From: Prevotella aurantiaca JCM 15754
Lineage (GTDB): Bacteria > Bacteroidota > Bacteroidia > Bacteroidales > Bacteroidaceae
Length of the DNA: 64,000 bases
Reading direction: 5' to 3'
Assembly (NCBI RefSeq): GCF_000614025.1
Contig: NZ_BAKF01000003.1
Location: forward strand, 62,001 to 126,000
Shown piece by piece: positions 6,352 to 57,519 of the stretch (position 1 is its first letter; the number at the start of each line of letters is the position of its first letter). Position numbers and translations under genes: made by a program. The notes under the pieces were generated by a model. That model was given only the letters and a program-made list of their open reading frames with translations, did no database searches and had not been told where the DNA came from.

Positions 6352-6395
6352 GAAAGGTTTAAGAATATGGTATTTACCATATTCTTAAACCTTTC
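6352..6395 (-). terminator. Perfect 21-bp hairpin after the glycosyltransferase gene
   Basis: The arms 6352-6372 and 6375-6395 are perfect inverted repeats with a 2-nt loop, lying directly after the glycosyltransferase stop at 6402 and 43 nt before the apbE start. The A/T ends make it usable as an intrinsic terminator on the minus strand. Confidence 0.8.
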
Positions 6396-12853: not shown

Positions 12854-13081
12854 ATGTCTTTTAGCCTGAGTATTATAGCTTTTTTTATTTAAAATTGATT
12901 ATCAAAGAAATTTTAGTTATGGTATCAGAATAAAGATGTAATGTACTTTTAAAGCGATTCGATTTTAAAACTAATAATTAGAAACAAAATAGCAGTAGGT
13001 TTTATTATGTAGAAGTGCTGTTAATTTTTTAGTATGTGTATACTTTAATAAAGTCGATTGAAATTTATAATAACAAAATAT

Positions 13082-13122
13082 AAAATTGTAATTATGTTTT
13101 TTAAATTTATAATTATAATTTT
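13082..13122. repeat. AT-rich hairpin, related to 48901-48940
   Basis: Arms 13082-13095 and 13109-13122 pair over 14 bp (one wobble) around a loop beginning GTTTTTT. The same order of blocks (AATTGTAATTA, T-run, ATAATTA, T-run) recurs at 48901-48940. Confidence 0.55.
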
Positions 13123-13224
13123 GCAGAATTCTTATTATGTTTTTCTAATCAGAAATTACCGCCTCTCTATAATGGAATAGTTTATCTTGGTAGTGCTTTA
13201 AGTCTTTCTTTATAATTATATAAA

Positions 13225-27997: not shown

Positions 27998-28582
27998 ACC
28001 CATTATTTAGTTTTTGGCATTTGTAAGCTGTGTTTTCGTATTGTATTACTGAAAGAATGAACATTGTCAACCATCTTTCTGATACAGAAGAAAAACTTCT
28101 ATTGATGTGAGATAGATAGCATATCTTAAACCTACTTTATTTCTATTGTTTTAGTATAGTATAGCTCTTATTTTGTAAAGAAAATAGTAGGAAAAAACAA
28201 TGATTGTTATTTTGCTTTGCAAAAGCGGTTGTTTTGCGAGGCAAAACAGGCTCTTTTACCGCGCAATATAGGCACTTTTGTAATGCAAAACAATGGGTTT
28301 TGTAACACGTTGATAGTGAAATTGTTACGTAATACCATTGCTAATAATAAATCTTTACACTTTCATAATCTCATCTTCATACGAATCATAAGATCGTTTT
28401 TATTAGTTTCGTGTTATCCGAATGCCATTTTAAGATGTGTACTCAGATAGCCGTGATAAGTCAGAAGCGTTACAATTGTAAAATGGGAATGGTTTTACGA
28501 TGTTTTATTATCAAAGTGTAAAGACGATGTTGTAAAAAGAAAAATTTCTAATACCAATGTAGTTTTATTCCAATTTTATTCT
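27998..28582. other. Intergenic region holding repeat copy 2
   Basis: About 585 nt without a credible gene. The 22-nt-unit repeat with its flanking blocks occupies 28173-28430. Confidence 0.6.
28173..28430 (+). repeat. 22-nt-unit palindromic repeat, full copy (copy 2)
   Basis: Order of parts: TTGTAAAGAAAA (28173-28184); inverted unit (28216-28237); loop GAG; direct units 28241-28262, 28263-28284 and 28285-28306, each 22 nt and starting GCAA; TTGATA (28310-28315); a TGCTAATAATA block near 28339; and TCCGAATGCCATTT (28417-28430). The last block sits 201 nt from the inverted unit; in the copy at 57 kb the distance is 202 nt. Confidence 0.85.
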
Positions 28583-34705: not shown

Positions 34706-34833
34706 TTTCAGTAACGTTTATCCTCTTTTCATTGTATCACAAGCGTGATACTCCATTCATTGTAGATGGACTTTACTGCGCTATTAGTAAGGATTTATCT
34801 TGTTTACAATTTGGTTGATTTCAGAAAAAGCAG

Positions 34834-35719: not shown

Positions 35720-35787
35720 TGTTATTAAAAATAGTCGTTTGTATTTTCTTTCGTACGACTATGATTTGTCCTTCAAATGGTTCTGAA

Positions 35788-35970
35788 TTGTAAAGAAAAG
35801 TGCAGCGGGAAAACGTTGACTGCGCTTTGGTGTTGCAAAAGTGCCTATATTGCGACGCAATATAGGCACTTTTACCATGTAAAACAGGCACTTTTATAAC
35901 GCAAAACAGGCTGTTTTTCAATGCACTGATTATCATATAATTAGATAATAATTATGTGCTTGAAAAATAT
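35788..35970 (+). repeat. 22-nt-unit palindromic repeat, full copy (copy 3)
   Basis: TTGTAAAGAAAA (35788-35799); inverted unit (35832-35853); loop GAC; direct units 35857-35878, 35879-35900 and 35901-35922; then a diverged TGATTATC box and a TGCTTGAAAAATA block near 35957. The stem between the inverted unit and unit 1 is perfect over 17 bp (AAAAGTGCCTATATTGC with its exact inverse). Here unit 1 and the inverted unit carry the same compensating variant (TATATTGC/GCAATATA). Confidence 0.88.
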
Positions 35971-36121
35971 TTACATTGTTAGCGTCTTTTTATCCGATAG
36001 AAGTGGCTTATTTCTCTTGGCTATTTAAAATTCTCCAAAGGCTTTGTTATTACATTGGTATAATAGGAAAGCCAAGTTGGGAATGCTAAAAGAATGAGCC
36101 TGTTAATCCATTTTCCGACAA

Positions 36122-41919: not shown

Positions 41920-42409
41920 CATTTTTTTAATGAGACAACCAATCTTTCATAACTCTTTTCCAATGTTTATTGCTTTTCTCACATGATTTAATGTGTTATA
42001 GTAGATAGGTTTTGGTTTGTAAAGAAAAAACCAGTTAATAATCAATACCCAATTGTTTGGTTTTGCAAAAGCGCCTGTTTTGCGATGCAAAATAGGCACT
42101 TTCAGCGTGCAAAACAGGCGCTTTTACATTGCAAAACAATAGGTTTTGCAATATGTTGATAATAAGACGGTTAGTATATATATGTTCTACTGAGAAATCT
42201 TAACGAAATCATGACAAAATTATAATGTAAAAAATAACAAAGTGGACTTGTATTATTATCAATTAAATAAAAGAGTAATGTTTTAATAGAATAGTCTTTT
42301 AGTATTTCTCTTTTGTTTATTCTTTAATTGAAGGAAGCAATTTTAAAGAACTGTCTATAAAAGTTTATAGCTATTATCGAAAATATTTTATTATACGAAA
42401 GAAAAGTAT
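41920..42409. other. Divergent intergenic region with repeat copy 4
   Basis: About 490 nt without a credible gene; the 22-nt-unit repeat fills 42017-42200. Confidence 0.6.
42017..42200 (+). repeat. 22-nt-unit palindromic repeat, full copy (copy 4)
   Basis: TTGTAAAGAAAA (42017-42028); inverted unit (42062-42083); loop GAT; direct units 42087-42108, 42109-42130 and 42131-42152; TTGATAAT (42155-42162); TACTGA (42188-42193) at offset 126 from the inverted unit, the same offset as in the 57-kb copy. It lies between divergent genes, unlike the other copies. Confidence 0.88.
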
Positions 42410-44981: not shown

Positions 44982-45077
44982 AGTAAAAGTAGAGTGTAAT
45001 TAGCTTATATTTTTTTCTTTGGTTAAAAGGCAAATAAAGAAAATGAAACTAAGATAACATAAGGTTCAAACAAAAAT

Positions 45078-45110
45078 AAAAGAGACTTTCCATTATGGAA
45101 AGTCTCTTTT
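45078..45110. terminator. Bidirectional terminator between pyk and rpiB
   Basis: AAAAGAGACTTTCC and GGAAAGTCTCTTTT pair perfectly over 14 bp with a 5-nt loop, between convergent genes. Confidence 0.9.
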
Positions 45111-45132
45111 ATTTTATATACTGGCGATGTAT

Positions 45133-48642: not shown

Positions 48643-49190
48643 ATGCTCTATTTATATAATGTTGTCTTTAGTGCAAAAGTAGTGATAATTTTCTTAATTG
48701 CTTTCCACAATGAAGGTTATTTTATATTTGTTTTTAAGAGTGATAAATTATATCTAGTCTTATTCTTTTCTCAAACGTCTAATTGTTCTCTGCTAAACTA
48801 GTTTATAGTGCAGATGAAATAATCAACATGTTCAATGACGTTGACATGTAGTATTAATAGGAGGATAGAATTGCTATATAAAATGTAATTACGAAAAATT
48901 AAATTGTAATTACTTTTTTAAAATTCATAATTACATTTTTCTTAATATATAATAATTTTTTCTTTATAGGCTAATAGATAGGGGAAACAATATATTTCTA
49001 GTCTTATTATTACCGAGTTCTACAATCATTTTTTAAAATATATCTTAGCTATAAGAAAGAATAGTTGTAAGTAACTATTTGACTGATAAGTGAAAAAATG
49101 AATAATAATCGTTATAATATCACTTCTCAATAATCTTCTAATTTTATTTTTAAAAGGGAACTTGATATTTGTTTTAAAAGTTTAGACAAT
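48643..49190. other. AT-rich intergenic region with hairpin repeat
   Basis: About 550 nt of very AT-rich sequence with no credible gene. It contains the hairpin at 48884-48940. Confidence 0.55.
48884..48940. repeat. AT-rich hairpin, related to 13082-13122
   Basis: TGTAATTAC occurs at 48884 and 48905, and TAATTACA (48928-48935) is the inverse of TGTAATTA. The block order AATTGTAATTA, T-run, ATAATTA, T-run is shared with the 13-kb hairpin. Confidence 0.55.
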
Positions 49191-56982: not shown

Positions 56983-57519
56983 TCCATAAAAATTTAATTA
57001 TGGTAGAATCCTATTAGGGAGAATGTTGTCATTTAGAACTTTCATAGATCGTTAATCTGTATTTGTCTGAACATAGTTCTTAAGTTCTCACATTTATGTA
57101 AAAGAATAAATAGAATGTTAGTAAACCACAAAGTTGTACTCATTCTAGTGCTTTAGTCCTGTAAAGAAAATTTTAGTAAATAATGAAGGTTATGCTTTGA
57201 TATTATAATAATGCCTGTTTTGCAGCGCAAAACAGGCACTATTGCCTTGTAAAATAGGCTCTTTTGCATAACAAAACAGATGCTTTTTCAACATCTTGAT
57301 ATTCAGATTGTTGAATAAGAGAGTTATTACTGAAAATAGTTTACGATTTTATTATGGTCATTTTTTCTTGTAAAGGAGGTTTTCTCATCTTGAATTGAGA
57401 AGTTCCGAATGCCATTTAGTAGTATTAGTAAATACGTTTCCAAAGCGTATAACGAAAAAGCTGCTATCATTGGATCTACACTTTTTATCCTTGATAGCGG
57501 CTTTCTTTAGTTTCTGACC
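56983..57519. other. Convergent intergenic region with repeat copy 5
   Basis: About 540 nt without a credible gene. The repeat and its flanking blocks span 57159-57417. A loose hairpin follows around 57460-57505. Confidence 0.6.
57159..57417 (+). repeat. 22-nt-unit palindromic repeat, full copy (copy 5)
   Basis: CTGTAAAGAAAA (57159-57170); inverted unit (57202-57223); loop AGC; direct units 57227-57248, 57249-57270 and 57271-57292; TTGATA (57296-57301); TACTGAAAATA from 57328 (offset 126 from the inverted unit); TCCGAATGCCATTT (57404-57417, offset 202). The distal part of the inverted unit is eroded in this copy, so the stem is shorter (GCCTGTTTTGC with its inverse). Confidence 0.86.

Follow-up and report, generated by a model that had tools for sequence, protein, structure and literature searches.

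Copies of an intergenic repeat in the window

The DNA analysed here, called the window, is a stretch of 64,000 nucleotides from the genome assembly of Prevotella aurantiaca JCM 15754 (Bacteroidales; 3.0 Mb in 148 contigs; G000 in the comparisons). At 28.2, 35.8, 42.0 and 57.2 kb it carries four copies of one element, which can be aligned over 189-191 bp. These copies, a degenerate one, two AT-rich repeats and the parts of the 57-kb copy are listed in Table 1; G100 and G017 are two further genomes with which the window is collinear.

Table 1. Positions of the element, its parts and related features in the window
Feature	Position	Strand	Basis and remarks
8-kb degenerate copy, 54 bits	8464..8652	-	G100 has a full-length copy at this place, G017 has none
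AT-rich repeat	13068..13143	.	Full-length copy there in G100/G017; tentatively a decayed copy
28-kb copy, 189 bp	28171..28359	+	Orthologues in G100 and G017, that of G017 minus one 22-bp unit
35-kb copy, 189 bp	35787..35975	+	Spacer around the copy absent in G100 and G017
42-kb copy, 191 bp	42015..42205	+	Orthologues in G100 and G017
Second AT-rich repeat	48886..48961	.	Full-length copy there in G100/G017; tentatively a decayed copy
57-kb copy, 189-bp core, PINSR-type	57157..57345	+	Model R1/nhmmer positions 3-188; syntenic copies in the same orientation in G100 and G017
Left block of 57-kb copy	57157..57170	+	Here TCCTGTAAAGAAAA, family TTTTGTAAAGAAAA; partly inverted relative to the right end; alignments
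Unit u1, inverted, degenerate here	57205..57223	-	GCAAAA-N7-TTTTGC frame laid on the alignment
Unit u2	57227..57245	+	GCAAAA-N7-TTTTGC frame laid on the alignment
Unit u3	57249..57267	+	GCAAAA-N7-TTTTGC frame laid on the alignment
Unit u4, diverged	57271..57289	+	GCAAAA-N7-TTTTGC frame laid on the alignment
Right arm	57295..57313	+	Family CGTTGATAatcAGATgGTTA; can also be recognised elsewhere in the genus
Right-end block with TACTGA	57328..57345	+	Family TTTTGAAAAATCTTTACA; alignments
Right extension	57346..57381	+	Conserved in G100/G017 (family CTTTTATTGCCTTTTTTTCG...), weak here
TCCGAATGCCATTT at 57 kb	57404..57417	+	Common to the 28-kb copy only; judged outside the element

The initial annotation had described these copies as one repeat with distant blocks at fixed offsets. 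Taken as a whole this observation stands as far as the four named copies are concerned, which on alignment form a single element, but not for its distal TCCGAATGCCATTT block. The constant offset of TACTGA is real: TACTGA (42188-42193 and 57328-57333) and the diverged forms of the 28- and 35-kb copies belong to the same block of the alignment, close to the right end. Across an alignment of 44 copies from this genome the TTTACA letters of the right end are 89-100% conserved, compared with 45-82% for the TACTGA columns, and thus the best-conserved part lies just 3' of TACTGA. The block TCCGAATGCCATTT was located at 28417-28430 and 57404-57417. Since no copy other than those at 28 and 57 kb was found to have it, it is not a block of the family. 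Its last 13 letters occurred at one of the 173 loci examined, namely the 28-kb copy itself, and no column exceeded about 0.3 bit at this distance in 46 copies of this genome and 39 copies of G100. The orthologous 57-kb sites of G100 and G017 have GTTCCGAA in common at this distance, the remainder being different.

In G100 and G017 conservation extends beyond the 189-bp core by about 22-27 bp on the left and about 36 bp on the right, which gives a total of about 250 bp. The extent of about 258 bp proposed originally comes close to this value, but its ends differ. Identity of the 57-kb copy with its orthologues in G100 and G017 amounts to 59-63%, at an unchanged net length. That one element had been copied as a whole was a sound suggestion: model R1, built from 33 copies, gave at least 150 matches in this genome (at least one place being counted on both strands), most of them spanning the full model, and at least 150 in G100.

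Some further features of the window were observed. The AT-rich repeats at 13068-13143 and 48886-48961 are alike at 74%, and in the former TGTTTT and TTTTGC are, by eye, kept at the family spacing. Perfect 21-bp inverted repeats lie between listed ORFs at 6352-6395 (loop of 2 bases) and 45073-45115 (loop of 1 base). The G+C content of the window (1-64000) is 37.7%, compared with 42-43% in contigs C148 and C144 of this assembly and in the syntenic part of G100; 3-kb loci on other contigs span 37 to 47%.

Probable identity with PINSR

Matched by description, the element very probably belongs, as a diverged copy, to PINSR, the 188-bp repeat of the P. intermedia/nigrescens group, because length, copy number, intergenic position, species and a copy downstream of tnaA agree. 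In the parts of the paper by Naito et al. considered here, PINSR is intergenic and present in 177 copies in one P. intermedia strain and 184 in another, with PCR-positive results for P. intermedia, P. nigrescens, P. falsenii and P. disiens and a copy downstream of tnaA in P. intermedia (PMC4755523). In the same parts its authors describe it as group-specific, lacking a terminal inverted repeat, missing from most strain-specific regions and of unknown function, and state for function and source that "further studies are necessary" (PMC4755523). A full-text literature search for PINSR together with Prevotella returned no naming of PINSR outside that paper.

The element described here resembles PINSR in length (189 versus 188 bp), intergenic position, abundance (at least 150 matches versus 177 and 184 copies) and species group, and many of its places are likewise common to several genomes. 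Among 74 copies from contiguous stretches there was no overlap with an ORF of more than 153 aa. In G100, tnaA (C1:1534940-1536067, minus strand) is followed by an element at 1534413-1534599 (minus strand), about 230 bp past the 3' end of the gene. With its two contigs and a tnaA with an adjoining copy, G100 would fit P. intermedia. G017, in which tnaA is found on contig C91 at about the same place as in P. falsenii NZ_BAJY01000002.1, is very probably P. falsenii and hence one of the four PCR-positive species; the G017 stretches examined contain 46 distinct, full-length PINSR-type cores. The flanks of tnaA (up to 2 kb) in 80 named records were without a copy. The exact core pattern had no match in the named genomes, a set outside which this genome and its near relatives may lie, and a single match among 40 relatives, which is this genome itself.

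The element differs from the published description in three respects: other species within the genus have related arrays, a subterminal inverted repeat, albeit imperfect, is present, and the conserved extent is about 250 bp. The unit structure, the rigidity of length, the spacing of the copies and the constraint in situ, which are described below, are new beyond the PINSR paper.

A unit array of fixed length with unequal spacers

Internally, each element consists of one inverted and three direct 22-bp units of the form GCAAAA-N7-TTTTGC, followed by the right arm CGTTGATAatcAGATgGTTA. This arrangement places TTTTGC-N3-GCAAAA palindromes every 22 bp, i. e. at about two helical turns, and the A-tract signal has its peak at 11.0 bp. 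In 969 kb there were 93 exact matches to TTTTGC-N2-4-GCAAAA, 89 of which fall within elements; three of the other four lie in or beside weak partial copies.

The length is tightly kept. Exactly 189 bp were found in 31 of the first 34 copies, and of 150 matches 126 showed no net length difference, 15 a difference of 1-3 bp and nine one of 10-12 or 22-23 bp, with nothing between these classes. Six of the longer changes, one from G017, were inspected; among them are the gain or loss of a unit, an insertion within the right arm and a changed order of the units. A copy at about 80.6-80.8 kb of contig C144 is longer by 23 bp and has an inverted unit pair with the new spacer word GTATGGT/ACCATAC.

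The N7 spacers are drawn from a few words per species (CAGCCGC, GAGCCGC and CCTACGC in G100; CAGCCGC, CCTACGC and CCTACGG in G017; mostly [CT]AGGCNC in this genome), and outside the spacers the word classes hardly differ. Neighbouring direct units tend to carry unequal words: u2 and u3 had the same word in one of 66 G100 copies (17.4 expected), in none of 46 G017 copies (12.5 expected) and in two of 44 copies here (3.6 expected; not significant). Whole words are swapped between orthologous copies, and some copies have an inverted u2. The simplest explanation for the unequal neighbours is that perfect tandem repeats would be lost by slippage.

Tyrosine recombinase sites are built in a comparable way, and the array could be one for site-specific recombination, with GCAAAA/TTTTGC arms around a 7-bp crossover and neighbouring words kept different so that deletion is prevented. 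The 7-bp spacer, the word vocabulary, the neighbour rule, the whole-word swaps and the inverted u2 units would all suit it. Yet slippage avoidance accounts for the neighbour rule without a recombinase, and no whole element was flipped in orientation at the shared sites, which makes this explanation very improbable.

Conservation of place and constraint in situ

Seven G100 copies lie in the stretch collinear with the window, and for four of them the window has a copy that agrees in place and orientation. At two of the three remaining sites the window contains an AT-rich repeat instead; tentatively, these repeats may be decayed copies. In six comparisons, 29 of 44 mapped loci had a copy in the other species, 15 had none, and no copy was in the opposite orientation; the comparisons overlap, so that the 44 loci are not independent. 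Only contiguous targets were used for these counts, since many other loci had been chosen for holding the element, which biases paired counts. Lineage-specific sites in the compared region are the one at 35.8 kb here, one in G100 and two in G017.

In three of five orthologous G100-G017 pairs, the partner was the closest of all compared copies. Where one copy came from this genome, orthologues were no closer than non-orthologous copies. At L027 (contig C129), 3.15 kb including the element are 95% identical to G100, compared with 75-94% for the other loci; this suggests a recent exchange or a stray contig.

The suggestion of selection on certain blocks is supported by ten orthologous G100-G017 pairs, the flanks of which are 91% identical. 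With rising column conservation in this genome, substitutions per site and pair in these copies fell from 0.31 to 0.29, 0.115 and 0.064, i. e. they were about five times rarer at conserved columns, and none of 188 circular shifts was as extreme. Five pairs involving this genome showed the same trend against the column conservation of G100, and column conservation correlates between the species with r 0.47-0.80. Ectopic gene conversion could mimic part of this result. Alone, it does not account for the conservation of identical columns in lineages that are separate. The copies are constrained after insertion, and their sites are probably gained and lost slowly.

Spacing, gap preference and the question of mobility

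Contiguous stretches of three species, 905 kb together, gave a mean spacing of copies of 6.4-11 kb. The stretches of G100, G017 and C144 contained no pair closer than 3 kb, versus 17.8 +/- 3.2 expected for placement in random gaps. Under a strict null, in which only roomy gaps were allowed and the window was added, five such pairs were found versus 23.9 +/- 3.6 expected. In each of five stretches the spacings were less spread than under the null (P 0.000-0.06). These nulls rest on ORF calls of at least 100 aa, minus ORFs that overlap the element, and not on an annotation. Contig C148 had six pairs closer than 3 kb versus 9.6 expected, which is not significant; four of them belong to one series close to the end of the contig, in which spacings do not exceed about 2.8 kb.

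C148 carries two series of copies. Between 37.5 and 56.3 kb six copies follow each other about 3.65 kb apart and at near-equal distances to neighbouring ORFs, and at 206-216 kb, near the contig end, five copies are 1.4-2.8 kb apart. This suggests that the element was possibly duplicated here together with gene blocks. C148 and C144 shared no aligned block of more than 600 bases with a 400-kb stretch of G100.

Convergent gaps are favoured, with 37 of 84 occupied versus 53 of 265 tandem and 14 of 86 divergent gaps. Such a preference is also expected from plain tolerance of insertions. Within tandem gaps 31 copies have the orientation of the genes and 22 the opposite one. A bias of orientation by chromosome arm was considered for the 150 best copies of G100 and was not significant (P 0.125 and 0.305).

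As convergent gaps are flanked by gene 3' ends, their preference would fit a structured RNA or transcript-end element in which the inverted units fold as a hairpin in the transcript, e. g. a terminator, a 3' end stabiliser or a processing signal. The predicted folds are strong (z -5.1 for the 57-kb copy; -2.5 and -4.0 on the two strands of one G100 copy), and in four of 33 copies one particular pair is changed from A-U to U-A on both sides. However, the occurrence of tandem-gap copies in both orientations disfavours such a role, and so do the u1 units that by word type have no matching u2 or u3 (four of 46 G017 copies). Moreover, exact u1-u2 matches are below chance in G100 (5 versus 14.8), u2 itself is inverted in some copies, the covariation term amounts to only -0.26 kcal/mol, and apart from SRP and tRNAs the window has no Rfam match at the gathering score. 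We therefore regard an RNA function as improbable. A pairing rule of u1 with u2 or u3 was overall not supported, the u1-u2 deficit in G100 being accompanied by an excess of exact u1-u3 matches (31 versus 23.3). At a relaxed E-value all Rfam matches in 57100-57500 were far below the gathering score.

A mobile element is a more serious candidate. The copies could be an old, non-autonomous, MITE-like element that was spread by a transposase acting in trans; the constrained bases would then reflect the needs of the transposase, and the distances between copies would result from transposition immunity or from the loss of close pairs by recombination. High copy number, intergenic position, lineage-specific sites, the preference for convergent gaps and the absence of pairs at less than 3 kb in the stretches of G100, G017 and C144 are in line with this, as is an imperfect subterminal inverted repeat in the G100/G017 consensus (TTTTGTAAAGATAATTC / AAGTGTAAATATTTTTC, 11 of 17 matches by eye). 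Target-site duplications, which the initial annotation had proposed to look for at the ends, were not convincing in a scan of 112 copies from G100 and G017: the best case was found in seven of 112 copies (about 1.1 expected) among 19250 tests. The single comparable filled/empty site differs by about 350 bp and not by 189 or 250 bp; the empty site at window position 34707 is poorly alignable and showed no clean gap of either size. A Y1_Tnp search in eight genomes gave matches in three, none of which was G000, G100 or G017. The constraint persists after fixation, and in the parts of the PINSR paper considered here no terminal inverted repeat is reported and most strain-specific regions are without copies (PMC4755523). 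A mobile origin of the family is likely. The searches made gave present mobility no direct support, with no convincing target-site duplication, no Y1 transposase and no clean 189- or 250-bp empty site. As a full explanation of the copies we consider the MITE-like element possible, albeit doubtful.

REP/BIME, ERIC and Correia-type repeats occur in hundreds of short palindromic copies. The element shares with them this abundance of short, palindromic, intergenic copies; unlike them, it has a 22-bp unit array and a fixed length of 189 bp, and a Y1 transposase as associated with REP was found in none of the three element genomes. The BrickBuilt MITE of Porphyromonas gingivalis is likewise an intergenic Bacteroidales element with short tandem units, which are 23 nt long and lie between a leader and a tail (19 copies in one strain, in the parts of the paper considered; PMC4596501). 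It differs in that its ends, GAGACCTTTGCA, are said to resemble those of P. gingivalis IS elements, that its unit number is variable and that target-site duplications are described for single elements (PMC4596501, same parts). Its 23-nt unit, AGAYCATARTATCCTCTCRTRTG, had no match in the window at up to three mismatches.

A possible double-stranded DNA platform

The stable place of the copies, their kept length and key bases and the rarity of close neighbours suggest that they act in the chromosome. The interpretation which we tentatively favour, and which seems quite possible to us, is that the element is a PINSR-type platform of double-stranded DNA for a putative dimeric protein, originally a mobile repeat and now kept by selection. 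On each copy, dimers of this protein would be lined up next to one another on a single helical face. The N7 sequences would be mere spacers, of which length and helical phase matter, and direct neighbours would differ in their N7 words so that units are not removed by slippage. Hundreds of such platforms, on average 6-11 kb apart, could serve chromosome organisation or topology, and the family, which probably started as a mobile repeat, would still gain and lose sites slowly.

We infer such a platform from the combination of rigid length, indels in helical steps, the palindrome grid, unequal spacers, shared places, constraint and the avoidance of neighbours. Against it stand the 15 of 44 mapped sites that are not common to the species, the word rule, which is not significant in this genome, and the six pairs closer than 3 kb on C148.

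Strong intrinsic curvature was also considered as the function. With a wedge table the predicted bend was 42 degrees in this genome versus 47 for shuffles, and 61 (G100) and 71 (G017) degrees versus 50 for shuffles. Since this static curvature is only modest, and here no greater than in shuffles, simple curved DNA is not the answer.

A protein-binding platform predicts that insertions of 5 bp are harmful and insertions of 22 bp are tolerated, and that the copies mark features of chromosome conformation. The TTTTGC/GCAAAA palindrome grid offers a defined bait for such a protein. PINSR serves as a signature for one group of oral bacteria, and the present data give testable claims on its function. 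If the copies are merely old mobile DNA, the rules of length and spacing need another cause, which would be informative on transposition immunity in Bacteroidales.

Related arrays beyond the species group

At E<=0.01, a match to model R1 was found in 64 of 120 genomes from the genus, counting this genome; most matches were weak and lay over the unit array, and E-values of R1 and of R2 come from a shortened calibration. For G074, 148 of 150 scored matches were recorded, some places being counted on both strands; its copies keep the 22-bp grid and the right arm and have different words and ends. Among the matches listed, strong full-length copies were restricted to G000, G100 and G017; G326 had a decayed one. 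A wider model at E<=1e-4 matched 19 of 251 genomes of the family. Ten of them, including this genome, belong to the same genus, and the nine from other genera had one or two weak matches each. Across the order this model matched three of 119 genomes, again including this one.

From the matches across the genus, the family as a whole appears to be centred on the genus, with PINSR as its form in one species group. Judged by sequence similarity, these relatives would stand against the PCR-based statement, in the parts of the paper considered here, that other clades lack PINSR (PMC4755523). It is conceivable, though rather unlikely, that PINSR and its relatives constitute a genus-wide class of chromosome-architecture elements, i. 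e. hundreds of phased multi-site platforms of fixed length, held several kilobases apart through selection, on which one protein family would bind the TTTTGC-N3-GCAAAA grid, with species-specific spacer words that differ between neighbours.

The decayed copy in another species of the genus (L252; G326:C91:13234-13358) is of the PINSR type and AT-decayed, and both of its end blocks are recognisable.
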